From the NCBI GenBank assembly GCA_021324435.1, contig JAJPIZ010000030.1, forward strand, positions 1 to 61,441: a stretch of 61,441 nucleotides of DNA, in the 5' to 3' direction. The notes beneath the pieces are model-generated. The model had not been told where the DNA came from. It was given only the letters and a program-made list of their open reading frames with translations, and searched no databases. Within the stretch, counting starts at the first letter, position 1. Each line of letters opens with the position of its first letter. A program made the translations under genes and the position numbers. This DNA is from Anaerolineae bacterium (GTDB taxonomy: Bacteria; Chloroflexota; Anaerolineae; Anaerolineales; Villigracilaceae). Positions 6,478 through 35,377 of the stretch are shown here, piece by piece.

Positions 6478-7839
6478 TCATGCCATTTTCTTCTTCATCG
6501 AAAACTTCAAGGCAGTTTTATAAACCAGACCAAGCCTCTCCGAGAGAGTCTTTGCTTCCGCGTTGCCCTGACCCGCCGCGGCGTCCACTTGCGCGACCAG
6601 CCCGTTCAGCGCTTCCATGAACGCGTCATTGATCATGGCCTGATTGGCTTCCAGCATCTTTGTGATGCCGGCCTCGTCGGGCGCGTCCAGCAATTGTTCA
6701 ATGAAGGCCACTTCCGGCGGCGATGCAGACGCGGCCTGCAAAACTTCCAGCATCTTTTGCAGTTTTCCCATCCGCGCGTAGTCATTTTTTTCTGAAGCCT
6801 GCCGTAACAGCGTCTGCGCGATGTCCACCGCATCTTGTGTAAAACCTTCCAGATTATCTTGTGTGGCCTTCGCAACATCTTCCTGCGCCAGTAATTTTTC
6901 CACGAACTCCTGAGCTTGCTTGTAGCGTGCTTCCAGCTGTTTATCCATCTCGTTCGTAAAATCCAAAAGTTTCTGGCGCAGGTCGGTGAGTTTTTTCTTT
7001 TCGTCCCCCGCGGCCTTTTCAATTCTCTCGGATAAATTCTGGAAGAAGACGTAATCCATGCCGTTGCGCGCCAATGAGACGTACGCTTTGACGCGTGCTT
7101 CGTTCGGAGCCTGGACGACTAACTCAAGCAATTTCTCGCGCGTCAGATTCTGCCCCGCCTCTTGCAGGGACTTTGCGGCGGCTTCCAATTCACCGACCGA
7201 TTCCTGCAACTTGCGGCCGTACTCCGTCTCCGTCAGCAGTTGCTTTTGCACTTCCGACATTTGTTTTGCAAGTTGTTCCTGCCCGCTTTGCATTCCGGCC
7301 TGCAAAAGGCGGCTGAACAACGCGAAGAATTGCTCATCGAACAACCTGATGTTTTGTTTGATAAGTTCACTACGCACATCTGCTGTGGTGGATTGAAGCA
7401 GGCGGTCAATCAAGTTAAGCCGCTCCTGCTGGGCCTTGATCATCTCAGGCGTGATGCCGTCCTTGCCGAGAATGGTTTCCATCATAGACTCAAAGGTCAG
7501 GTTTGCCACCGGCTTGAACAGATAGGCTTTGCGTTTTTCTGCGGGCAGGCGGTTGGTGATCTGTGTGATCAGGGGGCCGATCATTTTTTCCTGATCGTTG
7601 AGCGGCACATTCAGTTCGGGCGGGAAGTAGGTGAGCAGAAGTTCCTTGTCTGCATCGTGATAGACGATGGGCGTGGCGAGGCGGCCTTCATATCCGCAGT
7701 GCGGACAGCGCGCCATGTTCGAGATGCCGCCCAGCAGGCGTTGTTTCGCGCCGGGATCGGAGGTCACGTCGAAGAGTTGCTCGACGTTGGCGGTGATCAT
7801 CTGTTTACAGCGTGGACAGGCGATTTGAGTTTGAGGCAT
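6478..7839 (-). CDS. CpXC domain protein with a long coiled-coil tail
   Basis: This 453-aa protein opens with a zinc-ribbon-like CpXC domain: CPRC at 8-11 and CPHC at 45-48, as expected for two CPxC knuckles. CpXC proteins are uncharacterised and often found in Chloroflexota and Firmicutes. After about residue 150 the sequence is rich in Gln, Glu, Leu and Ala, with long predicted helices (SVGELEAAAKSLQEAGQN, LLDFTNEMDKQLEARYKQA) that suggest coiled coils. There is no signal peptide, so it should be cytoplasmic. The stop is followed by a strong terminator; upstream is a 7-bp-period tract. Function is unknown. Confidence 0.75.
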   Translation of the reverse strand: MPQTQIACPRCKQMITANVEQLFDVTSDPGAKQRLLGGISNMARCPHCGYEGRLATPIVYHDADKELLLTYFPPELNVPLNDQEKMIGPLITQITNRLPAEKRKAYLFKPVANLTFESMMETILGKDGITPEMIKAQQERLNLIDRLLQSTTADVRSELIKQNIRLFDEQFFALFSRLLQAGMQSGQEQLAKQMSEVQKQLLTETEYGRKLQESVGELEAAAKSLQEAGQNLTREKLLELVVQAPNEARVKAYVSLARNGMDYVFFQNLSERIEKAAGDEKKKLTDLRQKLLDFTNEMDKQLEARYKQAQEFVEKLLAQEDVAKATQDNLEGFTQDAVDIAQTLLRQASEKNDYARMGKLQKMLEVLQAASASPPEVAFIEQLLDAPDEAGITKMLEANQAMINDAFMEALNGLVAQVDAAAGQGNAEAKTLSERLGLVYKTALKFSMKKKMA

Positions 7840-7843
7840 TTAG

Positions 7844-7927
7844 CGATTTCCGATTGACGATTTATGATTTCAGATTGACGATGCCCAATATTCGAAAATC
7901 GAATTGCGAACATCGAGCATCGGGTTT
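7844..7927. repeat. Intergenic heptad tract (CGAnnnn core), 12 units
   Basis: Twelve consecutive 7-bp units fill almost the entire gap between two minus-strand genes. Units begin CGATTTC, CGATTGA and drift through CGAATTG to CGAGCAT and CGGGTTT. The first three bases are mostly kept while the last positions vary, so the period survives but the units are not identical. It abuts the stop codon of pepF at 7928. Confidence 0.8.
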
Positions 7928-9739
7928 CTATCCAACCAGTTCTTCCAGCCGGTCAATGTAACTTTCCATCACGGCGAAGGTCTCTTCCACAGGCTTGGGA
8001 CTTCGCAAATCCACGCCGGCTCTTTGGAGCACATCCAGCGGGTACCGCGATGATCCGGATTTGAGGAAGCCGAGATAATCTTCCACAGCGTTCTTTTCTC
8101 CGCGCAGGATGCGTCCCGAAAGCGCGTGCGCGCCCGAGATGCCGGTGGCATATTGATAGACATAATAATCCGCGAAGAGATGACTGAAGGTAGACCAAAC
8201 CATCCCGACGCGCGGCCGATCTACTTTCACCTTGGGGCCGAAGCCCTCGGTGAACAAGTCCGCCATCAGGTCAATCATGGAATCGGCGGTCAGCGGTTCG
8301 CCGCGTTCGACTCGCTGGTGAGTCTCGAGTTCGAAGCGCGCCAGAGTCGGCATCTGAAAGAAATATCTAAAGAAGTTTCCGCCGACGGCCTCCTCGATCA
8401 GCGCGATCAAAAAGTTTTTATCGGTGATGGTCTTCAACAGATGACCGCGCATCATGGCCTGATTAAAGTTCGATGCAACCTCCGCCACGAAGAGCGAATA
8501 ACCGGAATACGTGAAGGGCTGATTCTTCCACGTGAGATATGAGTGCATGGAATGGCCGAGTTCGTGCGCCAACGTGGACATGCTGTTGACTTCATCTGTG
8601 TACGACATCATGATGAAGGGGAAGGTGCCGGGCGCGCCATAGGAGAACGCGCCGTTCTGCTTGCCCTGATTCGGATACACGTCCACCCAGCGATCTTTGA
8701 GCGTGCCCTGCCGGATCGTGTCGGTGTATTCTTTGCCAAGCGGCGCGAGCGCCTCGCAGATATATTCCACGGCCTGCTCAAACGGAATCTTCGGCTTCTT
8801 TTTTGTGATGGGCGCCCACATGTCGTAGTAAGTGATTTCGCGCAAGCCCAATGCCTTGCGGCGCAGTTCAAAATAGCGATGCCAGATGGGAAGTTTCTTC
8901 TTGAAGGTTTCGATCAGGTTGTAGAAAACCTCGACCGGAATGTTGTTATTGAACAGCGAGGCTTCAAGCGATGATTTATGCTTGCGAGCGCGCATGTTGA
9001 AGACATTGCTCTTGATGGAGGTGGAAAGATTCGTCGCCAGCGTGTTCTTGAATTCGAGGTGCTTGTCCATGTAACTTTCAAAGGCGGTCTGCCGCACCTT
9101 GCGGTCGGGACTCTCCATCAATGCGGTGTGAATGTTGCCCTGAGTCACGTCTATCTTTTTGCCCTTGCTGGTTTTTGCGGGCGCGAATTTAAAATCTGCG
9201 TTGACCAACATGCTGGTACTCTCCGACGCGCCGCTCAATGGGTCAGCCAACATGCCGAGGATTTCCTCCACTTCCGCGGAGCGGACGTGTTCCTGCTGGC
9301 GGAAGAGATCATCGAAACTGTGACGGTACTCGGCGAGTATTTCGTTTCGATTCATCCATTCGTCTAATTTGGCTCTGCCAATTTCCAATAACTCCGGGTT
9401 GACGAAGGAAACCGCGCCGGCCACCTGACCATACATACTGCTGGCCTTGCCGTACATTGCCGACGACTTTTGATTGGTCGTGTCCACGCTGTAAGAGAAG
9501 GCCGCGTACATGAACGCGCGCTGGACGCGCTTCATCAATGCTTCGACTGCTTTCAGACCGTCAATCAGACTTTCTGGGTCTTCGCCCAATTTTCCCTGAT
9601 GCTTTTTGATTTCCGGCAGTTCTTTCAGAATGCTCTGGACTTCGGACTCCCAATCTTTTGGAGATTTGAAGACGCTTTCCGCGTTCCATGTATATTTTTT
9701 GATTGCCTTACTGCGAGGAGGAATTGTTGAGATTGCCAT
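7928..9739 (-). CDS. pepF: Oligoendopeptidase F (M3B family)
   Basis: This 603-aa cytoplasmic zinc endopeptidase cleaves short peptides. The active site is HELGH at 392-396 (HExxH), followed by a third-ligand region with VAEVASNFNQAMM (E-x-x-S in M3B enzymes). The N-terminal YTWNAESVFKSPKDWESEV and LIDGLKAVEALMKRVQRAF stretches match the PepF helical lid domain, and the C-terminal YYVYQYATGISGAHALS stretch with its tyrosines is a substrate-binding signature of the M3 family. Length is typical (about 600). The ATG at 9739 has an upstream GGACTC-type weak ribosome-binding site. It stands alone between two heptad tracts. Confidence 0.93.
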   Translation of the reverse strand: MAISTIPPRSKAIKKYTWNAESVFKSPKDWESEVQSILKELPEIKKHQGKLGEDPESLIDGLKAVEALMKRVQRAFMYAAFSYSVDTTNQKSSAMYGKASSMYGQVAGAVSFVNPELLEIGRAKLDEWMNRNEILAEYRHSFDDLFRQQEHVRSAEVEEILGMLADPLSGASESTSMLVNADFKFAPAKTSKGKKIDVTQGNIHTALMESPDRKVRQTAFESYMDKHLEFKNTLATNLSTSIKSNVFNMRARKHKSSLEASLFNNNIPVEVFYNLIETFKKKLPIWHRYFELRRKALGLREITYYDMWAPITKKKPKIPFEQAVEYICEALAPLGKEYTDTIRQGTLKDRWVDVYPNQGKQNGAFSYGAPGTFPFIMMSYTDEVNSMSTLAHELGHSMHSYLTWKNQPFTYSGYSLFVAEVASNFNQAMMRGHLLKTITDKNFLIALIEEAVGGNFFRYFFQMPTLARFELETHQRVERGEPLTADSMIDLMADLFTEGFGPKVKVDRPRVGMVWSTFSHLFADYYVYQYATGISGAHALSGRILRGEKNAVEDYLGFLKSGSSRYPLDVLQRAGVDLRSPKPVEETFAVMESYIDRLEELVG

Positions 9740-9761
9740 GTGAGTCCTTTCGGTTTCGCGT

Positions 9762-9817
9762 TCAGCAGTCAGCCTTCAGCGATTAAGGCTGATCGCTGAA
9801 TCCTGTGCGCTGATTTT
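9762..9817. repeat. Intergenic heptad tract (TCAGCnn / TGAnnnn core)
   Basis: Consecutive 7-bp units such as TCAGCAG, TCAGCCT and TCAGCGA pass through a divergent unit into TGATCGC and TGAATCC. The tract fills most of the gap upstream of pepF and ends at the stop of the sensor kinase gene. Confidence 0.65.
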
Positions 9818-11348: not shown

Positions 11349-11351
11349 GAT

Positions 11352-11393
11352 TCAGTAATCAGTGTTCAGTAACCAGTGTTCAGTTTCCAGTGA
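11352..11393. repeat. Intergenic heptad tract (yCAGTnn core), 6 units
   Basis: Six perfect-register 7-bp units, including TCAGTAA, TCAGTGT and CCAGTGT, lie directly upstream of the sensor kinase start. The yCAGT core is kept and the last two bases vary. The same core reappears at 28890-28917. Confidence 0.8.
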
Positions 11394-11668
11394 GATTTTA
11401 TCACCTGCGATTCGCGAGCGACGTATGAGTTGTATTAACAAATCCTTTTGAGGCCTGCTAACAGATTCCGAAGGCCGCTTTTCAAATCTGTCCATTGACA
11501 GGATTGACAGGACATTAACCGCCCACTAAAATTGATGCCAGTAAAAAAAACAGGGGAAATGCGGATGTGATGACCCCAAGTCTGAGTTTGGTCGCTTCCC
11601 TTTTGGGATAAGGCTTGGGCGAGCAAGCAGCGAAACCGGCCGCAAACTTTATTTTTGAGAGGGTCTAC
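11394..11668. other. Long intergenic region with promoter and leader of the giant surface gene
   Basis: With the heptad tract, this gap exceeds 300 bases. It holds the promoter at 11504-11532 and a leader of about 130 nt. The leader can form an outer stem CCCAAG/CTTGGG near 11575-11625 enclosing a CTTCCC-TTTT-GGGATAAG hairpin. I could not match it to a known riboswitch consensus. No small ORF is convincing here. Confidence 0.45.
11504..11532 (+). promoter_or_regulatory. Sigma-A type promoter of the giant DUF11-sortase gene
   Basis: TTGACA (11504-11509), 17-nt spacer, TAAAAT (11527-11532). The -35 box lies in the second copy of a tandem 9-bp repeat, TTGACAGGA at 11495-11503 and 11504-11512, so there are two possible -35 boxes 9 bp apart. 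The predicted start is near 11539. Confidence 0.65.
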
Positions 11669-14600
11669 ATGGGACACGACCGGTTTTTTCTGAGATCGTT
11701 GCTCCGCTATCTTTTATTTGGGGCGGTATTAATTTCGATGGCCGCGCCACAATCTCCGGCATCTGCCGCGGCAAGCCTGACGATCACTCCAATTACCTGG
11801 AACATCATCGGCCTTGACAGCAATAACGTCAATGTTGGGCCGAACGATTTTCCAGTGGGTGCGCGTGTTTGTAACACGGGGGATGTCGCCGCGACCAACG
11901 TTACTTCATCTTTTATTTGGGATACAACTGATACGTACATCAATCTGAGACCCGGCACTTTAACAAGTTTCACCGGGCCGAATGCCGTTTCCAGTCTGGC
12001 GGCCGGGACTTGTACCGATTTCTATTATGAAGTTGAGATCACGCGCAATTCTTCCGCCTATGACCATACCGCGCGCTATCACATCACGGCTTCTGCCACT
12101 TCGCTGGGAACGGTCAGCACGCCCACCCCGCGTGAAATTTATGTGGAACACCTCGTCTCACAGAGTCGCAACGGCGTGCGCACCGTGGAATACGGTACCT
12201 CGCTGGGTAGCATGACTTCTGTGGCGGCGGGCGGAACCATGACCCTCGTGGTCGGGAACACGTATTACATTCGGATGTCTGGTTTCACCGCTACCAACGG
12301 ATACGAGCAAATCGAGAGTTTTATCAATATCCCCAACACCATTTTTCAAGTGCTCTCTGTTCAAACCAGTTATAACGTGGATTCTTCCGCGTATGTGTCT
12401 AACCCTAATGACAAACTTTATGGAGATGGCTGTAAATGGGAGAACGATCCGAACAGTCCTAACTATCGTGCCTGTTTGGACGTTGGGAAAGATGGCGGCG
12501 ACCCAATTGTGGTCACCTATCAGGTGAAGATCCTACAAGTGCCTTCTTCTCCACTGGTAAATCCTGAGCCTCTTACCAACTTAATCTATGATTTTTCGGG
12601 AAGCAGTTATCACTATAATTCGGATTTCAGCCTTTCGACGCGCTATGCCAATGTTGTAAATGCCGGCATTGCCAAGTCATTTTCTCCGAAGACCATCAAT
12701 CCGGGTGGAACCTCAACACTGACCTTTACGATTACCAATCCCGGCACAAGCTCGATTTCTAGTGTCAACTTTACAGACACTCTGCCCTCAAATGTGACCT
12801 TGGCGAATACCACAGTAACTTACACTGGCTGCGGAGCCTCGCCTTCGCCATCTACATTGACCGTTAATGGGCCTCCACAGTCGCTCTCGTTTTCGAATAT
12901 AACGGTCAGTGGCAACAGCACATGTTCGATCGCAATCACGGTCACTTCGTCCACGAATGGCACGTATAACAACACCACCGGCCATCTGTATATTGACACA
13001 ACGGATACCGGCAGTTCTGCTTCAGACACACTTGTTGTGAGTTCTCAGCCGTCGCCGCCTTCTTCTTGTGGGACTAGCACAACAATGGCGACGTGGACTT
13101 TTGAGAATTATACGGCCAGCACCTCGACCAACAACGGACCGTTTAGCGCATCGTCACAAGCATCGGATGTGTCTACTGCAACAGGAACATACGGTTCAGC
13201 TACCGGAAGTTCGTCGGCCATCGTAAACACAACGACATTTCCCGCCGGATGGAGTGCTCCGTCCTCAACTGGCAATAGCGGAAATTCATGGGGCATACAA
13301 GGCGGATGGCTAGATGCGAATCCCGGGAGCCCAACAACTGCTACAACGCCCTATTTCCAGTTTCAAGTTGACGCAAGCAATTATGGCGGCCTGTCCGTTA
13401 CTGCGAATTACAACATGCAGGGGAACTGGTCGAACTCTGGTAACTATTATGTTCTTTATAGCACCAACGGGAGCACATGGAATTTAGCAAATTCGGCCGC
13501 GTGGGATAAATCCAGCGGCTGGAAGACTAACGGCATTACAGGTTCAACGACAAATACTGGTATCACCACGATGTACTTTAGGATCTTTGCGGCGGGTGCT
13601 CAATATTCAGGTAATCCTTCCGCAACGACCGGGACGTTGTACCTTGATGGCGTGACGGTCAAAGGCTGTCCTCGCCCGACCGTGCCGACGATGTCGAAGA
13701 GTTTCTCGCCCACCTTGGTCGCGACAGGCAATACCAGCACGCTGACATTCACACTCAACAATCCAAATTCAACCACTTCATTAACTGGTGTCTCCTTCTC
13801 CGATGTCTTACCTTCCGGCTTGACGGTCACGTCTGGATCCTCCACGGCTTGCACAACCGGCACGCTGACGCGAACCTCGCCGCGCACAATTTCTCTTTCA
13901 GGTGGAACGATTGCCGCAAGTGGGACGTGTACGATTAACGTCACGGTCACCGGCGCAACTGCCGGGTCGTATACGAACGTCAGCAGTAGTATCTCCTCCA
14001 CCGAAACGGGACCCAACACCATGGGAGGTGCGAACGTTGGCTATGGTCAAGCCAGCCTCACAGTTGTTGATCCGCCCGTCATAGCCAAATCCTTTACGGC
14101 CAATCCAATCTTTACTGGCAATACCACGACGCTGACCTTCTCCATCAATAATCCCAACACCTCCACGGGGCTGACGGGGGTGAGCTTTACTGACACTCTG
14201 CCAAGCGGCTTGACGATAGCAAGTTCATCCTCCTCACAATGCGGCGGCACGTTGACGACAACCTCTCCATCCACCATATCGCTTAGTGGCGGTTCGATCA
14301 GCGGCGGAGGCAGTTGCTCTTTCAGCGTAACCGTAACGGGCACAACCACCGGCCTCAAAACCAACACAGTTACGGTTAGTTCGACCAACGGTGGAACAGG
14401 CAATACCTCAACGGCCACTGTACTTGTAAAAGATCCCGCGCCAGCCATCAATCTATTGAAACAGGTTGGCACTTCTTCCAGCGGCCCATGGAATTCATTC
14501 CTGGCTGTGTCTGCGGGCGCAAACATCTATTACAAATTCACGGTTGAAAATGTCGGCGATGTTGCATTGAGTTCGGTCAGCGTGAGCGACAATACCCTCA

Positions 14601-17600
14601 GCCTTGCAGGTTGTTCGTGGAAGGATGGTTCCGGGGCGTCGCTCACGTCTCCATTTACATTGCCTGTGGCAGATGCCAGTGACAATCAAATCGCGACCTG
14701 CGTGCTCGGACCGTTCACGGCCGCGTCTGGTTCGCATCAAAACACGGCCACTGCGTCTGGCACATACAACAGCACGACGGTGACTGACACATCCTCCGCC
14801 ACATACGGTACACCCGCATTGACGCTGGCCAAGAGCGTGACCGAATCCAATTTCACGACCGCGGGTGATGTCTTGCACTACAGCTATCTCGTAACGAACA
14901 GCGGCTACGCGTCTTTGCTTGGGCCCATAACGGTCACCGATAACAAAACGACAGTGACATGCCCGGCTGTCAGCACGCAAGGTGACAGCGATGATTGGCT
15001 GGATGTGGGCGAGAGCCTCACTTGTACCGCGCCCTATACGGTTACTCCGGGCGACGTTACGACCGGCTATGTGACAAACACTGCTTCTGCTACAGCGAGC
15101 GGCGTGACCTCGAACACAGATAGCAAGACGGTCAGCGTGCCTCCTGATCTGACCGTGACCAAGACGGATAATGTCAGCGGCAGTGTCGCGCAGAATGGAA
15201 CTTTCAATTGGACGATCACAACCAGTAACAGCGGTGCCACAGGCATTGCATCGTTTGCAGATACTCAAACAATCATGAGTGACACTCTGCCTGGCGCGTC
15301 AAGTTATTATCCGCAAGGTTCGCTGACTCCAACGAACGGCGCGACTCCGCCCACAGGCACGATCAACTGCTCAATATCGGGAACCACTTTGAGTTGCGTT
15401 GCGAACGGCGCAGTCACGTTACCGGCTGGCGCGTCGTTTAGCGTCGCATTCGCCGTGACCCCGACCTCCGCAGGCAGTCTCGCCAACACGGCGACGGTTG
15501 ACCCGAATGGAAACATCACCGAAAGCAATGAAGCCAACAACACCGGCTCCGATACAGTGACGGTCGTCGCGCCACCCTCGATCTCCAAATCCTTTGGCGC
15601 GGTGTCGTTCAATCTTGGCGATACAACTACGTTGAGTTTCACGATCACGAATCCAAATACCACAACAACACTGACCGGTGTCGCATTTAGCGACACACTT
15701 CCTGCTGGATTGACCGTGCCCGATTCTTCTGCATCACAATGCGGCGGTACACTTGCCACCACAGCCGCGACCAATGCAATCGCCTTGAGCGGCGCGAGCA
15801 TTGCCCCCAGTGGAACCTGCACCTTCAATGTCACGGTGACAGGCTCGACGCTTGGTTTGAAAAATAACACCACTGGCAATGTATCCTCAACCAATGGTGG
15901 CACAGGAAATACCGCCAGCGCATCCACGACTGTGGTCGCGCCTGACTTGACAGTGACCAAATCTGATAATGTCAGCGGGAGCGTCGCGCAGAATGGTACT
16001 TTCAATTGGACGATTACCGTCAACAACAGCGGTGATGGCATTGCTTCATTTGCAGACACTCAGACTATCCTGAGTGATACTCTGCCCGGCGCGTCGGGAT
16101 ATTATCCGCAAGGCTCATTGACTGTGAGCAATGGTGCAACTCCGCCCACAGGCACAATCAACTGCTCGATAACGGGAACCGCTTTGAGTTGCGTCGCGAG
16201 CGGCGCGGTCACACTTCCAATAGGCGCATCTTTTAGCGTCACGTTTGCTGTGACACCTAGCGCGGCAGGCAGTCTTGTCAACACTGCAACGGTTGACCCG
16301 AATTCGAACGTGACAGAAAGCAATGAAGCCAACAACACCGGCTCGGACACGGTGACAGTGGTTGCGCCTCCTTCGATCAATAAGACTTTCACACCGAACA
16401 CGATTGCTCAAGGCTCGACCTCAAGTTTGTCCTTTACCATTACGAACCCAAATGCTTCGACAACTCTGACCGGCGTCGCATTCAGCGATACTCTGCCAGC
16501 CGGTTTGACGGTCACTGACTCGACCACTTCACAATGTGGCGGCACATTGACCGTGACGGATGCGACGCATATCATCGCTTTGAGCGGCGCAAGCATCCTG
16601 GGAGGTGATACCTGCACCTTCAGCGTAACGGTCACAGGCTCGACCTCGGGAGTAAAGAACAACACAACAGGAAATGTCACCTCCACCAATGGCGGAACAG
16701 GCAACACGGCCTCTGATACTCTCACTGTTGTCGCGCCGCCCTCTATCAGCAAGAACTTCTCGCCCGATCCCATTTTCGTGAATGGAACATCTACTTTAAC
16801 ATTCACCATCACTAATCCAAATACCACCACGGCATTGACTGGCGTTGGATTTACTGACTCGCTTCCTTCCGGACTTCAAGTTGCCTCTCCACCCAATGAC
16901 TCGATCTCAGCGGATTGCGGATCAGCCACCTTCACGCCTCTTGCAACTGAAACCTCGCTGACCTTCACCAACGGAAACATTCCTGCCTCTGGGACTTGTA
17001 CCGTTTCCGTGGATGTGAAAGCCACCTCTACCGGAGTGAAAAACAATACTTCCGGCAATGTGACATCCACGAACGGCGGGATTGGCAACACGGCCAGTGA
17101 TTCACTGACCGTAAATCCGCTAATTGATGTGTCCCTCGATAAGCAGGTCAGCAATGCAACCCCGAACGTGGGTGACACCGTCACTTTCACGCTCGTGATT
17201 GCCAATGCTGGGCCAAGCACAGCCACGAATATCGTTATGACCGATGTGATTCCAAGCGGCTACACCTACGTTGCTTCTTCCATCACGGGCGGAGATTCCA
17301 ATAATGACTCGAATCCCTTCACAACTGGCCTGACGTGGACAATCAACTCGCTCGCTTCCGGCTCCAGTATCAATCTGACCTATCAAGCCACGGTGCTGGC
17401 GACTGGCACGTACGACAACTACGCTGAAATTACATCGCATACACAGACCGATTCCGATTCCACTCCGGGCAACAATTCCACCACGGAAGACGATGATGAC
17501 ACAGTCGTGGTGACGCCTGTCCCGGTTGCGGATCTGGCCATCACCAAGGCCGATGGCGTGACCAGCGTCGCGGTTGGCGGTACGACAACGTACACCATCC

Positions 17601-20600
17601 GCGTCACCAACAACGGACCGAGTAGCGTGACCAGTGCGATCCTGAGCGATCCCGCCGCAACCGGCCTTAGTAAGACAAGCATATCTTGTTCGGCGACGCC
17701 CGGACAATGTAGCACGCCGCCTACTGTCGCCCAGTTGGAAGCAGGAACCTTTGCTTTGCCTGCATTGGCAAACGGCCAGTTCTATGAAATTACGGTCACC
17801 GCGAACGTGACGGCTTCAAGCGGCAGTGTCACCAACACTGCAACCATCGCGGCTCCAAGCGGCACAACCGATTCAAATAGCGCAAACAACTCCGCGGATG
17901 ATACGGATACAGTGGCCTCGGCTCCCAGCATGACAGTTGTGAAGAGTTCAACCACCACGAGCCTCAATGCGCCGGCAACTGTGAACTACAATTACCTGGT
18001 CACAAATACAGGCAATGTGTCTCTGACGGGAATCAATCTGAGTGACGACAATGATAACAACGACATGAGTTGTCCGGCGACCAGTCTCGGTGCTGGTGCG
18101 AATATGACTTGTACGGCGACTCATACCTTCACGCAAGCCGAACTGGATGCAAACGGTTCGCCGACCGCGGCCAGCGGCAAGCTGACCAACACTGTGACTG
18201 CCAGTTCCAACGAGGCGCCGGATGCAACTGATAGTCTTGATATTCCGATCACACAGAGCCCAGCGTTCACGATTGCCAAGAGCATCACTTCCACTGGACC
18301 CTATGATTCGGCAGGCGATGTCATTGCTTATCAGGTGCTTGTGACAAATACCGGCAACATCACGTTGACCGGCGTGAACGTCAGCGATCCATTGCTATCC
18401 AACCTGGATTGCGACGGGACTGCCGGCGCGCCCTACGTTTCCACTGGTCTGACGATCAATGTCGGTTCGAGCCTGACCTGCACCGGCTCATACACCTTGA
18501 CTCAATCCGATCTCGACAACAATGGTGGAGGAGACGGCGATATTGATAACACCGTCACGGGCGATACCGATCAGACCACGTCGAAGACCTCCAGTGCCGC
18601 CGCGCCTTTGACCATTAATCCTTTGATGACGGTGGCAAAGAGTTCGACGACTACCAGTCTCAGCGCGCCGGGAACAGTCACTTATAGTTATCTGGTGACG
18701 AACGCTGGTAATGTGACGCTGACAGGTATCAGCCTGAGTGACGACAACGACAACAATAACATGAGCTGTCCGTTCACAACTCTGGCTCCGTCCGCGACGA
18801 TGACGTGTTCGGCAACCCATATCTTCACCCAGGCGGAGTTGGACGCGAATGGTTCACCCACAGCGGCCAGCGGGAAACTAACGAACAATGTGACCGCCAG
18901 CTCTAACGAAGCACCGAATGCCACTGACAGCCTGGATATTCCGATCACACGGAATCCGGCGATGACCGTTGCGAAGAGTTCGGCAACTACAAGCCTCAGC
19001 GCGCCGGGAACGGTGAATTATAGTTATCTAGTCACGAATACCGGCAATGTGACATTGACGGGCATTGGCTTGAGCGATGACAACGATAACAACGATCTAA
19101 CCTGCCCATCCAATACTCTCGCCCCATCCACGGCGATGACCTGTACCGCGACGCATACTTTTACTCAGGCTGAGCTGGATGCAAATGGTTCACCCACCGC
19201 GGCCAGTGGGAACCTGGCGAACAACGTTACAGCCAGTTCCAATGAGGCGCCTGATGCAACGGATAATCTTGATATTCCCATCACATATAATCCCGCGATG
19301 ACTGTGGCAAAGAGTTCGACCACGGCCAGTCTCAGCGCTCCTCAGACGGTCAACTATAGTTACCTGGTGACCAATACCGGGAATGTGACATTGACGGGAA
19401 TCATCCTGTCGGATAACAACGACAACAATGACATGAATTGCCCAGCCGCCGCACTGGCTCCATCAGCGACAATGACCTGTTCGGCCACTCACACCTTCAC
19501 CCAGGCCGAATTGAATGCAGGCGGATCACTGGACAATACGGTGACAGCTTCCTCGAATGAGGCGCCTGACGCGACCGACAATCTGAGCATCCCGATCATA
19601 CAAAATCCTTCAATGACGGTGACCAAGAGTTCAACGACTTCGAGCCTCAGTGCTCCTGCCACTGTGAGCTATAGTTATTTGGTGACAAACGCCGGCAACA
19701 TAACCCTGACCGGCATCAGCTTGAGCGACGACAATGACAACAACAACATGAATTGCCCGTCCACCACGCTGGCCCCATCCGCGGCGATGACCTGTACCGC
19801 AACGCATACCTTTACACAGGCTGAACTGGATGCAAACGGCTCACCCACCGCTTCAAGCGGCAACCTGACCAATAATGTGACCGCCAGCTCCAATGAAGCG
19901 CCGGACGCCACTGATAGCCTCGATATTCCAATTACGCAGAATCCTGCAATGACCGTCGTGAAGAGTTCCACTACTTCGAGTCTGAGCGCCCCGGGAACGG
20001 TGAATTATAGCTACCTGGTAACCAACACAGGCAATGTGACCCTGACGGGCATTAGCTTGAGCGACGACAACGACAATAATGACATGAGCTGTCCGTCCAC
20101 GACGCTGGCGCCCTCTGCCACGATGACCTGTTCGGCAACGCACACTTTCACCCAAACCGAATTGAATGCAAATGGTTCGCCCACTGCAGCCAGCGGCAAT
20201 CTGACGAACAATGTCACGGCCAGCTCCAACGAAGCGCCGGATGCCACGGACAGCCTCGATATTCCGATTACTCAGAATGCCGCGATGACAGTAGCCAAGA
20301 GTTCGACGACCATGAGTTTGTCCTCCGCTCCTCAGACGGTCACGTACAGTTATTTAGTGACAAACACCGGTAACATAACCCTGACCGGTATCAGCCTGAG
20401 CGATGATAATGACAACAATGATATGAGTTGTCCGTCTACGACACTGCTCGTTGGTGCAAATATGACTTGCTCCGCCACGCACAGTTTCACACAAGCAGAA
20501 CTGGATGCGGGCGGATCACTGGATAACACTGTGACGGCTTCTTCAAATGAAGCACCGGACGCGACCGATAGTTTGAGTATCCCAATTACGAACAACCCTG

Positions 20601-22033
20601 CCATCAACGTGACCAAGACCATCACCAATGTCAATTTCGTCAATCCATCTGTCATTACCATGACCTACTCGATTGTTGTTCAAAATACAGGCAACACGAA
20701 CTTGAGTAATGTACAAGTCGTGGATGATTTGACTACTGCGTTCCCTTCGCCTGCCACTTATGCTGTCAATAGTGTGTCGAGTAGCACCTTCTCGGTCAAT
20801 TCAGGCTTCAATGGTAACAGCGACAAGAATTTGTTGGTAGGAACTGACGCACTTGCCCCAACCGCGAGCGGCACCATCACGCTCGTCGTGACGGTCACCA
20901 CGAATGGCGGGGATGCCAGTTACACCAACACCGCTACAGGTAGTGGAACGTCTGGCAGTCGCACCGTCAATGATTCCGGTTCCGCCTCAGGACCGAGTTT
21001 CATTGACCCGGCCCTCACCAAAGCAGTTGATCCATCACAGGCCGGGATTGGCGACACCGTGACATTTACCATTACGGTTACGAACAATGGCACAGTGGAT
21101 GCAACGGGTGTGGTTGTCACTGATCCTTTGCCGGGCAATTTGGATTACGTCAGCGCCTCCGCTATTAGGAACGGCGTCACACCAATACCACTCGCTGACA
21201 TTACCTTCAATTCTCTGACAAACACTGTACGGGTTGACATTGGATCGCTTGCTACCACCGACACAGTAGTTATTACGATTGTTACCACTGTAAATGGTCT
21301 TGGCCAGCCGCCGATTCAAAACCGTGCAACGGTCGTCGCGGATCCGCCTCCAGCGGGAGTCTCACCGGATCCGACTCAAAATAATACAGCTGCAGTCACG
21401 CTTTCCATCCCCGGCGGTGGAGGAGGTGGTGGGGGAGGCGGTGGTGGTGGTGGAGGGGGCGGAGGCGGTAATGGAGGCGGAGGCACAGGCGGGCTGATCC
21501 CCGTGACCGGCTTCGCGCCGAACGTCCTCACGACGTTGCCATCGCAACCGATGGATAAAACTTACATTGCTCAAGGCGGTGTATGGCTGGAAATTCCACG
21601 CCTGAGTGTGCGCATGCCTATTGTCGGTGTGCCCTTCTCAAATGGCACATGGGATGTGACCTGGCTTTCAGATCAAGCCGGATGGTTGCAAGGCACGGCC
21701 TTTCCAACCTGGAACGGTAACAGCGCGCTGACCGGTCATGTCTATCTTTCCAACGGTCAGCCCGGCCCCTTTGTCAATTTGCACAACCTGAAATGGGGTG
21801 ACAAGGTCATTGTGCATGCCTTCGGCCAGCGCTACATCTATGAAGTGCGCGAGAATCGTGTGGTCCAGCCGAATGATGTCTCTGTCTTCAAGCACGAGAC
21901 CAACCCGTGGCTCACGTTGTTGACTTGCAAGGATTATGATCAGGCCAGCAACTCCTACTCGCATCGCGTGGCGATCGGTGCGGTCCTGATCAAGGTCGAG
22001 GAAGATCACAACACTGATTCGTCCAAACGCTGA
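11669..22033 (+). CDS. Giant secreted DUF11-repeat protein with polyglycine linker and C-terminal sortase domain
   Basis: About 3,454 aa from the ATG at 11669, chosen because GAGAGGG precedes it at good spacing and a signal peptide follows immediately (LLRYLLFGAVLISMA, cleavage near SASAA). Order: a unique N-terminal region; DUF11-type beta-sandwich domains (SFSPxxIxxGxTSTLTFTI) from about 12.66 kb; a non-repeat insert at 13.05-13.68 kb that looks like a jelly-roll domain; a duplicated two-domain unit (15.14-16.74 kb); a block of 112-aa repeats (17.93-20.60 kb); final DUF11 domains; about 19 glycines; IPVTG; then a sortase fold. The sortase has the catalytic His in LTGHVYLSNG (about residue 3357), Cys in LTLLTCKDYD (about 3420) and Arg in SHRVAIG (about 3433). 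Composition is rich in Ser, Thr, Asn and Asp, as for an extracellular stalk. It is monocistronic, with a strong terminator. I infer a cell-surface fibre that carries its own transpeptidase. Confidence 0.88.
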   Translation: MGHDRFFLRSLLRYLLFGAVLISMAAPQSPASAAASLTITPITWNIIGLDSNNVNVGPNDFPVGARVCNTGDVAATNVTSSFIWDTTDTYINLRPGTLTSFTGPNAVSSLAAGTCTDFYYEVEITRNSSAYDHTARYHITASATSLGTVSTPTPREIYVEHLVSQSRNGVRTVEYGTSLGSMTSVAAGGTMTLVVGNTYYIRMSGFTATNGYEQIESFINIPNTIFQVLSVQTSYNVDSSAYVSNPNDKLYGDGCKWENDPNSPNYRACLDVGKDGGDPIVVTYQVKILQVPSSPLVNPEPLTNLIYDFSGSSYHYNSDFSLSTRYANVVNAGIAKSFSPKTINPGGTSTLTFTITNPGTSSISSVNFTDTLPSNVTLANTTVTYTGCGASPSPSTLTVNGPPQSLSFSNITVSGNSTCSIAITVTSSTNGTYNNTTGHLYIDTTDTGSSASDTLVVSSQPSPPSSCGTSTTMATWTFENYTASTSTNNGPFSASSQASDVSTATGTYGSATGSSSAIVNTTTFPAGWSAPSSTGNSGNSWGIQGGWLDANPGSPTTATTPYFQFQVDASNYGGLSVTANYNMQGNWSNSGNYYVLYSTNGSTWNLANSAAWDKSSGWKTNGITGSTTNTGITTMYFRIFAAGAQYSGNPSATTGTLYLDGVTVKGCPRPTVPTMSKSFSPTLVATGNTSTLTFTLNNPNSTTSLTGVSFSDVLPSGLTVTSGSSTACTTGTLTRTSPRTISLSGGTIAASGTCTINVTVTGATAGSYTNVSSSISSTETGPNTMGGANVGYGQASLTVVDPPVIAKSFTANPIFTGNTTTLTFSINNPNTSTGLTGVSFTDTLPSGLTIASSSSSQCGGTLTTTSPSTISLSGGSISGGGSCSFSVTVTGTTTGLKTNTVTVSSTNGGTGNTSTATVLVKDPAPAINLLKQVGTSSSGPWNSFLAVSAGANIYYKFTVENVGDVALSSVSVSDNTLSLAGCSWKDGSGASLTSPFTLPVADASDNQIATCVLGPFTAASGSHQNTATASGTYNSTTVTDTSSATYGTPALTLAKSVTESNFTTAGDVLHYSYLVTNSGYASLLGPITVTDNKTTVTCPAVSTQGDSDDWLDVGESLTCTAPYTVTPGDVTTGYVTNTASATASGVTSNTDSKTVSVPPDLTVTKTDNVSGSVAQNGTFNWTITTSNSGATGIASFADTQTIMSDTLPGASSYYPQGSLTPTNGATPPTGTINCSISGTTLSCVANGAVTLPAGASFSVAFAVTPTSAGSLANTATVDPNGNITESNEANNTGSDTVTVVAPPSISKSFGAVSFNLGDTTTLSFTITNPNTTTTLTGVAFSDTLPAGLTVPDSSASQCGGTLATTAATNAIALSGASIAPSGTCTFNVTVTGSTLGLKNNTTGNVSSTNGGTGNTASASTTVVAPDLTVTKSDNVSGSVAQNGTFNWTITVNNSGDGIASFADTQTILSDTLPGASGYYPQGSLTVSNGATPPTGTINCSITGTALSCVASGAVTLPIGASFSVTFAVTPSAAGSLVNTATVDPNSNVTESNEANNTGSDTVTVVAPPSINKTFTPNTIAQGSTSSLSFTITNPNASTTLTGVAFSDTLPAGLTVTDSTTSQCGGTLTVTDATHIIALSGASILGGDTCTFSVTVTGSTSGVKNNTTGNVTSTNGGTGNTASDTLTVVAPPSISKNFSPDPIFVNGTSTLTFTITNPNTTTALTGVGFTDSLPSGLQVASPPNDSISADCGSATFTPLATETSLTFTNGNIPASGTCTVSVDVKATSTGVKNNTSGNVTSTNGGIGNTASDSLTVNPLIDVSLDKQVSNATPNVGDTVTFTLVIANAGPSTATNIVMTDVIPSGYTYVASSITGGDSNNDSNPFTTGLTWTINSLASGSSINLTYQATVLATGTYDNYAEITSHTQTDSDSTPGNNSTTEDDDDTVVVTPVPVADLAITKADGVTSVAVGGTTTYTIRVTNNGPSSVTSAILSDPAATGLSKTSISCSATPGQCSTPPTVAQLEAGTFALPALANGQFYEITVTANVTASSGSVTNTATIAAPSGTTDSNSANNSADDTDTVASAPSMTVVKSSTTTSLNAPATVNYNYLVTNTGNVSLTGINLSDDNDNNDMSCPATSLGAGANMTCTATHTFTQAELDANGSPTAASGKLTNTVTASSNEAPDATDSLDIPITQSPAFTIAKSITSTGPYDSAGDVIAYQVLVTNTGNITLTGVNVSDPLLSNLDCDGTAGAPYVSTGLTINVGSSLTCTGSYTLTQSDLDNNGGGDGDIDNTVTGDTDQTTSKTSSAAAPLTINPLMTVAKSSTTTSLSAPGTVTYSYLVTNAGNVTLTGISLSDDNDNNNMSCPFTTLAPSATMTCSATHIFTQAELDANGSPTAASGKLTNNVTASSNEAPNATDSLDIPITRNPAMTVAKSSATTSLSAPGTVNYSYLVTNTGNVTLTGIGLSDDNDNNDLTCPSNTLAPSTAMTCTATHTFTQAELDANGSPTAASGNLANNVTASSNEAPDATDNLDIPITYNPAMTVAKSSTTASLSAPQTVNYSYLVTNTGNVTLTGIILSDNNDNNDMNCPAAALAPSATMTCSATHTFTQAELNAGGSLDNTVTASSNEAPDATDNLSIPIIQNPSMTVTKSSTTSSLSAPATVSYSYLVTNAGNITLTGISLSDDNDNNNMNCPSTTLAPSAAMTCTATHTFTQAELDANGSPTASSGNLTNNVTASSNEAPDATDSLDIPITQNPAMTVVKSSTTSSLSAPGTVNYSYLVTNTGNVTLTGISLSDDNDNNDMSCPSTTLAPSATMTCSATHTFTQTELNANGSPTAASGNLTNNVTASSNEAPDATDSLDIPITQNAAMTVAKSSTTMSLSSAPQTVTYSYLVTNTGNITLTGISLSDDNDNNDMSCPSTTLLVGANMTCSATHSFTQAELDAGGSLDNTVTASSNEAPDATDSLSIPITNNPAINVTKTITNVNFVNPSVITMTYSIVVQNTGNTNLSNVQVVDDLTTAFPSPATYAVNSVSSSTFSVNSGFNGNSDKNLLVGTDALAPTASGTITLVVTVTTNGGDASYTNTATGSGTSGSRTVNDSGSASGPSFIDPALTKAVDPSQAGIGDTVTFTITVTNNGTVDATGVVVTDPLPGNLDYVSASAIRNGVTPIPLADITFNSLTNTVRVDIGSLATTDTVVITIVTTVNGLGQPPIQNRATVVADPPPAGVSPDPTQNNTAAVTLSIPGGGGGGGGGGGGGGGGGGGNGGGGTGGLIPVTGFAPNVLTTLPSQPMDKTYIAQGGVWLEIPRLSVRMPIVGVPFSNGTWDVTWLSDQAGWLQGTAFPTWNGNSALTGHVYLSNGQPGPFVNLHNLKWGDKVIVHAFGQRYIYEVRENRVVQPNDVSVFKHETNPWLTLLTCKDYDQASNSYSHRVAIGAVLIKVEEDHNTDSSKR
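15143..16738 (+). repeat. Duplicated two-domain unit, period 798 bp, within the giant gene
   Basis: The segment starting PDLTVTKTDNVSGSVAQ at 15143 recurs as PDLTVTKSDNVSGSVAQ at 15941, exactly 798 bp (266 codons) later. Each copy contains one DUF11-type domain (TILSDTLPGAS...) and one SFSP-type domain. The nucleotide copies are similar but clearly diverged, mostly at third positions. Confidence 0.8.
17930..20602 (+). repeat. Array of eight DUF11/DUF7507-like repeats of about 112 aa
   Basis: Unit starts are at 17930, 18266 (divergent), 18626, 18962, 19298, 19613, 19949 and 20285. The typical unit reads MTVAKSSTTTSLSAPGTVNY, then YLVTNTGNVTLTG, a DDNDNNDMSCP stretch and THTFTQAELDANG. Six units are 336 bp or longer; two (19298 and 20285) are shortened to 315 and 318 bp by a shorter GGSLDN loop. 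The DDNDNN stretch is a plausible calcium-binding or turn segment. Confidence 0.88.
18626..20602 (+). repeat. Higher-order duplication: three-unit block repeated with 987-bp period
   Basis: Units at 18626/18962/19298 correspond one-to-one with 19613/19949/20285, each exactly 987 bp apart. Both first units have LVTNAGN instead of NTGN. Both third units have APQTV instead of AP(G/A)TV, and the short GGSLDN ending. Synonymous positions differ widely, so the block duplication is not recent. Confidence 0.8.
21413..21511 (+). other. Polyglycine tract followed by IPVTG sorting-like motif
   Basis: Nineteen consecutive Gly codons (21413-21469) use all four GGN codons in mixed order, so the tract is not a simple slippage product. 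Asn, four Gly, Thr and two Gly follow. Then comes L-IPVTG-F with IPVTG at 21497-21511, which fits the [LI]-P-x-T-G sortase recognition pattern. The sortase domain starts about 25 residues later. Confidence 0.75.
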
Positions 22034-26556: not shown

Positions 26557-26575
26557 TTCGATATTGGGCGCGATG

Positions 26576-26638
26576 ATCGAATACCGAACATCGAGTACCG
26601 AGTATCGAGTATCGAGTATCGAATATCGAATATCGCTT
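26576..26638. repeat. Intergenic heptad tract (AyCGAnn core), 9 units
   Basis: Nine in-register 7-bp units, several being ATCGAGT or ATCGAAT, fill the gap between the lipoprotein gene and mtaB. Because 7 is not a multiple of 3, an apparent N-terminal extension of mtaB through this tract is unlikely to be coding. Confidence 0.85.
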
Positions 26639-26650
26639 ATTGGAAAAGTT

Positions 26651-27916
26651 ATGAAAATCTACCTCGATACCATCGGTTGCAGGTTGAATCAAAGCGAAAT
26701 CGAATCCATGGCGCGACAGTTTCGCGCCGCGGGGCATGAGATCGTCGCAACGGCCGCGGGCGCGGACACGGCGGTGGTCAACACCTGCGCGGTGACCGCG
26801 GAGGCCGCCTCCGATTCGCGCGGCAGGATTCGGCGCATTGCGCGCGCCGGCGTCAACGAGATTGTCGCGACGGGTTGCTGGACAACGCTTCAACCCCGCG
26901 AAGCCGCGGCGCTTCCGAATGTGATCCGTGTGATCTCGAATGACCGCAAAGAATTTCTGGTTGCAGAAACGCTCAACCTTCCTCTTGAAACGTTCGATCT
27001 CGAACCTTTAAACCGCGTTCCTCTGCCCGGCATTCATCGCCGCACGCGCGCCTTCATCAAAGCGCAGGACGGTTGCGATAATCATTGCACGTTTTGCATC
27101 ACCACCGTAGCGCGCGGGGTGAGTCGTTCGCGCCCGGTGGCTGATGTCGTCAATGATGTTCAATTTGCCCTCGATGGCGGCTCAAAAGAAATCGTGCTCA
27201 CCGGCGTGCATCTCGGTTCGTGGGGACAGGATTTCAATAAGCACTTGCGCGATTTGGTCAAAGCCGTTTTGCGCGAGACGGATGTGCCGCGCCTGCGACT
27301 CTCTTCACTCGAGCCGTGGGATTTGGACGCGGACTTCTTTGCGCTGTGGGAAGACCCGCGACTCTGCCAACATCTTCATCTGCCCCTGCAAAGCGGATGC
27401 GCCGCGACGCTCAGGCGTATGGCGCGTAAAACAACTCCCGCGTCTTTTCGGGACCTTGTAGCGGACGCGCGTCAAGCCATGCCGGACGCGGCCATCACCA
27501 CCGACGTCATCGCGGGCTTCCCCGGTGAGACCGAGGCCGAGTTCGCCGAGTCATTGGATTTCATCCGCGAGATGAATTTCGCGGGCGGTCATGCCTTCAC
27601 GTATTCGCCGCGGCCCGGGACAGGCGCCGCGCGCATGGGAGGGCAGGTCCGGCCCGAGGTCCGGAAGGAACGGAATCACATCCTGCACGAAGTGTTCGAA
27701 GAGTCCGCAAAAGCCTACCGCCAAAAATTCGTCGGCAAGGTGTTGTCTGTCCTGTGGGAATCCACAACTCAACTTGATGAACGCGGCTGGCAAATGGAGG
27801 GCTTGAGCGGAAATTATCTGCGCGTGACCGCGCCCGCGCCGAAACCCATATGGAATGAAATTTCGCTGGTCGAACTTGGAGAAGATGGAACGAGCGGCGT
27901 GATTCGCAACGCGTGA
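26651..27916 (+). CDS. mtaB: MtaB-like tRNA t6A37 methylthiotransferase
   Basis: This 421-aa radical-SAM enzyme of the MiaB family adds a methylthio group to t6A at position 37 of ANN-decoding tRNAs. An N-terminal UPF0004 domain starts MKIYLDTIGCRLNQSE, with Cys residues in TIGCRLN, VVNTCAVT and VATGCW that bind the auxiliary cluster. The radical-SAM CDNHCTFC motif (C-x3-C-x2-C) is at about 142-149, followed by GGSKEIVLTGVHLGSWG and the LHLPLQSGC motif. A short C-terminal TRAM-like region follows. The start at 26651 is preferred over upstream in-frame codons that lie in the heptad tract. Confidence 0.9.
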   Translation: MKIYLDTIGCRLNQSEIESMARQFRAAGHEIVATAAGADTAVVNTCAVTAEAASDSRGRIRRIARAGVNEIVATGCWTTLQPREAAALPNVIRVISNDRKEFLVAETLNLPLETFDLEPLNRVPLPGIHRRTRAFIKAQDGCDNHCTFCITTVARGVSRSRPVADVVNDVQFALDGGSKEIVLTGVHLGSWGQDFNKHLRDLVKAVLRETDVPRLRLSSLEPWDLDADFFALWEDPRLCQHLHLPLQSGCAATLRRMARKTTPASFRDLVADARQAMPDAAITTDVIAGFPGETEAEFAESLDFIREMNFAGGHAFTYSPRPGTGAARMGGQVRPEVRKERNHILHEVFEESAKAYRQKFVGKVLSVLWESTTQLDERGWQMEGLSGNYLRVTAPAPKPIWNEISLVELGEDGTSGVIRNA

Positions 27917-28889: not shown

Positions 28890-28917
28890 TCAGTGTCCAG
28901 TGAGCAGTAACCAGTAA
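28890..28917. repeat. Intergenic heptad tract (nCAGTnn core), 4 units
   Basis: TCAGTGT and CCAGTGA are followed by GCAGTAA and CCAGTAA, starting at the base after the folD stop codon. The core is the same as in the tract at 11352-11393, some 17.5 kb away. Confidence 0.75.
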
Positions 28918-28946
28918 GCGGGAGATGTTTTGTTCTCCCGCTTTTT
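28917..28946 (+). terminator. Rho-independent terminator of folD
   Basis: Perfect 9-bp stem AGCGGGAGA/TCTCCCGCT with an 8-nt loop and a TTTTT tract. It sits between the convergent folD and S9 peptidase genes. Confidence 0.88.
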
Positions 28947-28950
28947 GTTT

Positions 28951-35345: not shown

Positions 35346-35373
35346 GCAAATCGCTAAAAGTTAATTGCTAACG
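35346..35373. repeat. Short heptad tract (GCTAAnn-like core), 4 units
   Basis: GCAAATC and GCTAAAA are followed by GTTAATT and GCTAACG in 7-bp register just before the 8-oxoguanine deaminase start. It is the weakest of the heptad tracts. Confidence 0.4.
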
Positions 35374-35377
35374 GCTC

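Follow-up and report, generated by a model that had tools for sequence, protein, structure and literature searches.

Degenerate tandem tracts with a period of seven nucleotides occupy both intergenic gaps and coding DNA in the genome of an Anaerolineae bacterium, and at orthologous sites of related species the period is retained while the heptads themselves differ. The reading that we favor, albeit with considerable reserve, is that the tracts result from slippage in seven-nucleotide steps combined with fold-back copying, which together would rewrite change-tolerant DNA in a mostly neutral fashion; hereby, we infer both the events and their neutrality.

The window, i.e. the whole stretch of DNA that was analysed, is the entire contig C30 (61,441 bp) of a host genome of 3,110,871 bases (3.11 Mb) in 51 contigs. 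The nearest named relatives of its MtaB/MiaB-like protein are found in Chloroflexota MAGs, mostly Anaerolineales, with 81% identity to the best of them. In the following, C denotes contigs of the own genome, G denotes genomes and L denotes loci of relatives.

Heptad tracts in the window and in the genome

Each gap named in the initial annotation was scored at lags 4 to 12, and lag 7 was additionally compared with 1000 dinucleotide shuffles (floor p = 0.001). The six tracts are given below together with their lag-7 scores.

7836 to 7928, no strand assigned: degenerate heptad tract filling the gap from the ORF 6478-7839(-) to the M3 peptidase ORF 7928-9739(-); score 23.4, p = 0.001
9753 to 9805, no strand assigned: inverted heptad tract GTTCAGC AGTCAGC CTTCAGC ... 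GCTGATC GCTGAAT, upstream of the M3 peptidase ORF; score 12.1, p = 0.001
11350 to 11391, no strand assigned: direct heptad array NNYCAGT in six copies, without hairpin; score 13.8, p = 0.001
26571 to 26642, no strand assigned: heptad array CGAATAT/CGAGTAT repeated ten times, in the gap preceding the MtaB/MiaB-like ORF; score 38.3, p = 0.001
28891 to 28923, no strand assigned: direct heptad array CAGTNNN in four copies; score 12.3, p = 0.001
35346 to 35378, no strand assigned: weak heptad tract GCAAATC GCTAAAA GTTAATT GCTAACG; score 7.1, p = 0.010

Lag 7 is the top lag in all six gaps, the best other lag scoring 5.9, which bears out the 7-bp period proposed for them as well as the weakness ascribed to the tract at 35346, the weakest of the six. 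The core sequence had further been described as changing. This holds between species; within the tracts first listed at 7844 and 9762, however, much of the change is found because the arms of a heptad hairpin are complementary (TCAGC and GCTGA at 9762, a 16-bp hairpin at 7844). Read on the minus strand, the first half of tract 7836-7928 forms this 16-bp hairpin (RNA fold z -2.35), and the second half consists of AAATCGGAAATC-like heptads reaching the next start codon. The ORF 7928-9739(-) was assigned to the M3 peptidases by Pfam. Among the eight genomes with a readable 7836 gap, the AATCGGAAA heptads by the start codon are kept in seven and changed in G004, the rest of the gap being variable. 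The inverted tract 9753-9805 (palindrome z 4.6, RNA fold z -3.23) is absent from the orthologous gap in G005, G012, G006, G004 and G011. Tract 11350-11391, for which Tandem Repeats Finder gives a period of 14 with 89% matches, shows no folding (RNA fold z 0.01), tract 26571-26642 reaches a fold z of -2.36 with flanks, and at 28891-28923 a separate terminator-like hairpin (approximately 28912-28947) overlaps the end of the tract and carries the fold z of -4.33. At gathering scores, Rfam gave no known RNA family at the tracts.

Apart from the tracts, Rfam placed a c-di-GMP-II-GAG riboswitch (42.7 bits, gathering score 40) at 11554-11650 (+), where it either directly precedes a giant ORF (11615 or 11669 to 22033) or overlaps its first bases. 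The interior of this ORF holds about five copies of a 336-bp tandem repeat (18625-20310, 72% matches) and a GGT/GGA-rich repeat at 21413-21477. A hairpin-like repeat of another kind, with a GTCATTGCGAG start and a near-complement end, was seen 3' of the M3 peptidase in L251 (G005) and before MtaB in L025, L042 and L087; this GTCATTGCGAG-type repeat occupies gaps where other species have heptad tracts.

Beyond the window, the own genome was sampled as stretches of its 3,110,871 bases, comprising 1,141,866 bases at first and 1.34 Mb later. In the gaps of the first sample, 72 lag-7 segments score at least 9 compared to a mean of 1.8 in five shuffles, and among lags other than multiples of seven, lag 9 has the most segments (23); at scores of at least 16, lag 7 yields 22 segments versus at most 2 at these other lags. 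Intergenic DNA thus contains the lag-7 excess over shuffled sequence on which the initial annotation had staked its proposal. Averaged over all gaps, the autocorrelation at lag 7 exceeds that of shuffled sequence by little (0.266 versus 0.254), and lags 2 to 6 equal it or come close. This is because a limited number of tracts carry the signal, for which reason segment scoring was used. The larger sample contains 119 lag-7 tracts in 1.34 Mb (89 per Mb), and in four stretches of E. coli K-12 (200 kb) no lag-7 tract was found. The gaps of 75 loci of relatives (1.17 Mb) contain 72 lag-7 segments versus 5.0 in shuffled sequence, 19 segments being found at lag 8 and 30 at lag 9.

That tracts lie only in gaps is true of the six in the window and fails genome-wide: at a score of at least 12, the 1.34 Mb hold 49 tracts in gaps (169 kb in total) and 47 in coding DNA (1,065 kb). 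Similarly, the claim that they fill their gaps exactly applies to a minority, 20 of 56 tracts covering at least 70% of their gap, with a median of 42%. By gap type, the density is 0.52 tracts per kb in co-directional gaps (48 tracts), 0.27 in divergent gaps (8 tracts) and 0.13 in convergent gaps (3 tracts). A terminator role for the tracts was considered and is not favored, as convergent gaps are the poorest, with small numbers (3 tracts).

The 195 arrays in 1.34 Mb have many cores within one genome, the commonest consensus, AATATCG, accounting for only nine of them. A restriction to one or a few fixed heptads per genome, as expected of STRR-like heptanucleotide repeats, is hence not found here; the tandem seven-nucleotide period itself is above chance. 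Arrays of the GACNRTN type occur in 18 of 301 genomes of the phylum, namely in 12 of 17 from the window's own family versus 6 of 284 elsewhere. Of the two kinds of clustering that had been put up for testing, clustering by lineage is thus partly seen. Clustering by position is not, because one site has different cores in different species. The reversed pattern CAGNTRN was dropped as a clean negative control, since it is itself a heptad core and occurs in more of the 301 genomes (37) than GACNRTN (18); other cores are therefore more widely spread. The highest number of GACNRTN matches, 197 (106 forward, 91 reverse), was counted in G202 (4.4 Mb; same phylum, another family), and the next highest of the 301 genomes is the window's own with 45.

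Tracts within genes and at orthologous sites

Coding tracts were counted at least 45 nt from gene ends and at a lag-7 score of at least 12, with codon shuffling as the null; since genes were called with a home-made coding model, gene borders are approximate. Hereby, coding DNA yields 47 tracts at lag 7, 3 at lag 8 and 20 at lag 6, while codon-shuffled DNA yields none at lag 7. In total, 32 called genes in 1.34 Mb carry an internal tract with a score of at least 12, and 25 of the 27 scanned with Pfam match a family. The tracts are in frame within MutS2, MutL, RecJ, PheT and MoeA homologues, and in many genes Pfam domains run on at both sides of them. In the MutL homologue the tract lies between the two C-terminal domains, in the RecJ homologue it lies inside DHH, and the MutS2 and PheT homologues carry four and two tracts, respectively. 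Further bearers are an MnmA-type tRNA enzyme, two MoeA proteins, two 2-oxoacid dehydrogenase E2 proteins, a glutamine amidotransferase, a heavy-metal P-type ATPase, a poly(A)-polymerase-type enzyme and a ComEC-type protein.

We note that genes for mismatch repair or ssDNA processing (MutL, MutS2, RecJ) are themselves tract-bearing (C19:9610-11367, C23:62282-64690, C2:7658-9388), comparable to REPs in repair genes. An apparent second type of in-frame insert (peptides LRHTQGG, ALSEAEG and PSTPLRAG) was observed at the MtaB coding site of L045, at C11:28238-30424 and at C19:22200-24824, in coding DNA that also bears heptad tracts.

For RNase P RNA, matches were obtained in 39 of 41 genomes. Among the 30 loci read, heptads with a score of at least 10 are found in one (L203), where they form a heptad hairpin with GATTNNN arms (z -7.92).

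In-gene tracts were compared between orthologues for PheT (read in 37 genomes), MutS2 (30 genomes) and MtaB (coding site in 71 of 75 loci plus the window). PheT site 2 measures 51 nt in 19 of 37 genomes, among them the congener G004, and 108-240 nt with heptads in the congeners G000, G001, G002, G003 and G005 as well as in G007 from another genus; the long variants of G020, G025 and G039 (87-96 nt) have no heptads. Relative to 51 nt, the added length is divisible by 21 in G000 and G007 but not in G001, G002, G003 and G005. Of the sites of G001, G002 and G005, two measure 108 nt and one 111 nt, with gap-free alignment of the left arms and flanks at 0.71-0.89. The left arm of G001 resembles that of G005 (0.90) more than that of G002 (0.63), whereas its right arm resembles that of G002 (0.82) and differs from that of G005 (0.14 unshifted, 0.54 shifted by 3), so that the arms of G001 are split between the two. 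PheT site 1 is 66 nt long in 29 of 36 readable genomes, contains GACCGTN-type heptads in G000 and G002 (90 nt) and TGAAAGN heptads in G019 (129 nt). Based on shuffles with uncorrected p values, p ≤ 0.02 is reached for lag 7 in 5 of 37 genomes at site 1 and 13 of 37 at site 2, and for inverted repeats in 2 and 5 of 37, respectively.

At MutS2 site A the corresponding counts, likewise at uncorrected p ≤ 0.02, are 19 of 30 for lag 7 and 11 of 30 for inverted repeats, and 10 of 30 genomes combine lag-7 p ≤ 0.02 with inverted p ≤ 0.05. Sites B and C show lag-7 p ≤ 0.02 in 9 and 13 of 30 and inverted p ≤ 0.02 in 2 of 30 each, again uncorrected. The MutS2 heptads differ by species (ATGGATC/AACCATC, GTTGAAG/AACCTTC, GGACGAT/TCGTCTG, GTCAAAG/GACCTTC). 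Across the 139 stretches of the PheT and MutS2 sites, a score of at least 11 is attained 44 times at lag 7, seven times at lag 8 and once each at lags 5, 6, 9 and 11. Because species differ in their heptads at these fixed sites, the period does outlive the sequence, as had been proposed.

The third gene compared contains the following site.

26930 to 27013, plus strand: site in the MtaB/MiaB-like CDS, residues 94-121; radical SAM/UPF0004 by Pfam

In the window's genome this site has a score of 0, and several relatives carry in-frame heptad arrays there. Its length (n = 72) is 84 nt in 53 cases, shorter in 2 and longer by 9 to 45 nt in 17, and 10 of the 17 longer alleles have heptads (score at least 11). 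Among these ten, an excess of 21 nt is found in L055 only, the rest being longer by 9, 12, 24, 30 or 45 nt; the sister locus L049 (89% identical) is without the 21 nt of L055. In the 200 nt before MtaB, 17 of 72 loci reach a lag-7 score of at least 10 with varied heptads, and several others show non-heptad hairpins by eye. L047 and L050 (85% identity) bear CAGTGNT versus GTAATTN heptads at one anchor, and the gaps of L035 and L067 differ by 11 nt.

Hairpin anatomy and proposed origin of the tracts

Inverted tracts, which are only part of all tracts, consist of heptads, a loop and the reverse-complement heptads. Out of 121 tracts (score at least 11, 25 nt flank), 31 have a palindrome score of at least 10 and 17 of at least 12, a few of the 31 palindromes being neighboring structures such as the terminator at 28891. 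Perfect 17-bp arms are found at C22:161366 and C23:108878. When whole heptads are permuted within one arm, pairing of the arms in register is above the permutation mean in 28 of 37 inverted tracts, with an average of 13.3 versus 12.3; as this excess is modest, we do not claim compensatory change. A purine-rich first arm was discarded as a trait of heptad hairpins, since it is seen in 30 of 41 untied heptad hairpins but also in 98 of 144 untied non-heptad ones and is thus not specific. In 60 direct arrays, the identity between heptads falls from 0.77 through 0.72, 0.67 and 0.64 to 0.60 at one to five heptads apart, as expected from local duplication.

Sequence is shared between tracts to a limited extent. 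No pair among 139 own-genome tracts has a common 26-mer, and one tract searched against the whole own genome gave a best other match of 85% over about 60 bases. Common words of 10-14 nt are in excess of a block permutation (0 of 50 permutations reached the observed value), which could mean some copying between loci. Against a column-shuffle null, 12 pairs share a 20-mer versus 2. The case for strong inter-locus copying is weakened by a heptad-block null, in which 6 of 50 permutations reach the 20-mer count and 2 of 50 the 17-mer count.

According to our preferred reading, the tracts would be products of a mutational process and not one sequence family. DNA that tolerates change, such as gaps, protein linkers and RNA loops, would grow and shrink in seven-nucleotide steps via strand slippage. 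The nascent strand may then fold back, whereby the array would be copied as a complementary second arm, giving rise to a heptad hairpin. A point change in one heptad could be spread through its arm by more slippage, so that the core would be rewritten and the period would persist, and in coding DNA the survivors would be the frame-keeping changes only. Since the period is present in reading frames without a protein reason for it (seven is not a multiple of three), it is imposed on DNA or RNA. Slippage is likely part of the process because array identity decays with distance and because one sister pair shows a length difference of exactly 21 nt in the MtaB coding sequence. Of the statement that the tracts are not simple recent slippage, what stands is that the core is rewritten as well. 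Several observations speak against the mechanism in this form. Clean steps of 7 or 21 nt were seen rarely, the length differences at MtaB, at PheT site 2 and between L035 and L067 being mostly other. Hairpins are not general, the MutS2 sites B and C and the PheT sites 1 and 2 being mostly without them and the tracts at 11350 and 28891 being direct only. The modest excess in arm pairing and the surplus of common 10-14 nt words count on the same side. Moreover, as seen for the right arm of G005 at PheT, some arms are too different for point change and slippage alone. With regard to the step of seven, PMC4679880 and PMC4692102 cite a proposal by Mrazek which invokes the contact length of the polymerase.

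A further-reaching reading is conceivable, though we lean against it: the heptad hairpin might be an element by architecture alone, i.e. by its seven-nucleotide period and complementary arms, that is retained, exchanges one arm at a time and forms anew at the same loci, among them in-frame sites in core genes and a catalytic RNA, without conserved sequence or transposase. A dedicated replication or repair activity of these lineages would then have to impose the seven-nucleotide step.

Alternatively, the tracts could be selected RNA hairpins, kept for a role in the mRNA (3' end protection, pausing or the spacing of genes in operons) and free in sequence if both pairing and length hold. Strong folds such as those of the L040 gap (z -6.56) and of the RNase P insert, the top tract density in co-directional gaps and the 17 of 72 loci with lag-7 signal before MtaB, for which no chance level was computed, next to others with non-heptad hairpins, are all in line with such a role. 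We nevertheless regard it as unlikely to account for the tracts, as hairpin selection predicts no seven-nucleotide period and the in-frame copies in enzyme genes have no obvious RNA role. In addition, of the five window tracts folded, the one at 11350 is unfolded and the fold at 28891 is that of the neighboring terminator. Folding of the L067 gap is weak (z -1.48), the five genomes named above lack the tract of the 9762 gap, and the few tracts in convergent gaps speak, in small numbers, against a role as terminator.

REP/RPE-like palindromes that are mobilized by a Y1 transposase (RAYT) and inserted in gaps as well as in frame in genes appear improbable as the source, even though REPs do include in-frame palindromic inserts, many of which lie in genes of replication and repair (PMC3733652). 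Y1_Tnp (PF01797) matches are present in 21 of 21 genomes searched, with 2 in the window's genome, but also in 5 of 14 control genomes, and the excess of common 10-14 nt words has to be set against the lack of a common 26-mer and the 85% best match of the one tract searched. A dispersed single palindromic family with a consensus, as is typical of REP/RPE, was thus not found among the 139 tracts. Furthermore, the compared sites differ in their heptads and gave no family consensus, and the REP descriptions in the passages considered from PMC3733652 are without a seven-nucleotide period.

Sites at which a translational or transcriptional regulator binds, a role proposed for TAACTGA repeats, would fit the retention of the AATCGGAAA heptads before the start codon in the 7836 gap and the tracts at 11350 and 28891, whose core is of the TAACTGA/TCAGTNN kind that lies near start codons in Beggiatoaceae (PMC4679880). 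This explanation is highly improbable in view of the many cores in one genome, the near-equal counts of tracts in genes and gaps (47 versus 49) and the loss of the core at orthologous sites. Finally, an assembly or binning artefact can practically be dismissed: the named genomes are nearly all metagenome assemblies, in which repeats can be misassembled, but tracts are present in MAGs of many isolates and projects and in the single-contig genome G012, and Pfam domains continue on both sides of them in many genes.

Relation to known heptad repeats

By the title of a 1997 article, Vioque is said to have described a short tandemly repeated repetitive (STRR) heptanucleotide in the gene for RNase P RNA in heterocyst-forming cyanobacteria. 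The cyanobacterial STRRs of Mazel (1990) are reported to be built on few fixed heptads. Our sites, which comprise gaps, protein genes and RNase P RNA, share with these STRRs the seven-nucleotide units in gaps and in RNase P RNA, here in 1 of 30 loci. By description, they are set apart in that one genome has many cores, that arms form hairpins and that protein-coding sites are included.

In the P6b stem of the Nostoc trnL intron, Class I (TDNGATT) and Class II (NNTGAGT) heptads form a stem of complementary heptads, and the classes were repeatedly swapped at one site (PMC4476775). There, one intron site and two classes are concerned; the present tracts have many cores and lie at many loci, protein genes among them. 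Complementary heptad arms in one stem are found in part of our tracts only. The heptamers GGGAATC of Xanthomonas and GGGGA(C/T)T of Nostoc are mostly intergenic and differ in length and sequence between close species at the same sites; two Xanthomonas have 70 and 75 convergent pairs from which stem-loops could form (PMC4692102). Unlike the present tracts, they have one G-rich core per organism with G-quadruplex potential; the passages considered from that paper mention coding-region repeats without detail and make no mention of changing cores. TAACTGA repeats of Beggiatoaceae, cyanobacteria and Bacteroidetes are also mostly intergenic, some arrays being split by related heptads, and resemble the CAGT-type core of the tracts at 11350 and 28891. 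They differ by one favored heptad, by the rarity of related heptads as repeats and by a single inverted case, and the word Chloroflexi is absent from the text considered of PMC4679880.

REP/RPE elements share in-frame palindromes with our tracts, and different REPs sit at approximately the same recB site in two Xanthomonas; their families are tagged GTAG or CGTC, and the passages considered from PMC3733652 mention no seven-nucleotide period. Borg tandem repeats are likewise fast-evolving and located in gaps and ORFs; however, their units in ORFs are perfect and all divisible by three (PMC9879509), in contrast to the degenerate units of seven found here. Heptad repeats, class-swapping heptad stems, inverted heptad pairs and in-frame palindromes are hence already known separately. 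Among the best literature matches listed, none reports their combination, in which one genome has many cores, arms form hairpins, tracts lie in frame within core genes and fixed sites carry different cores; nor is there, among the same matches, a description of changing-core heptad hairpins in Chloroflexota.

In conclusion, orthologous sites allow a period to be traced despite changes in sequence, and this within reading frames that offer no protein reason for a seven-nucleotide unit. As it is traceable at orthologous sites, the source of the step is testable, with length steps, phase and arm identity being measurable. The tracts also illustrate a route by which the proteins and RNAs of one bacterial group gain linkers of near-arbitrary sequence.
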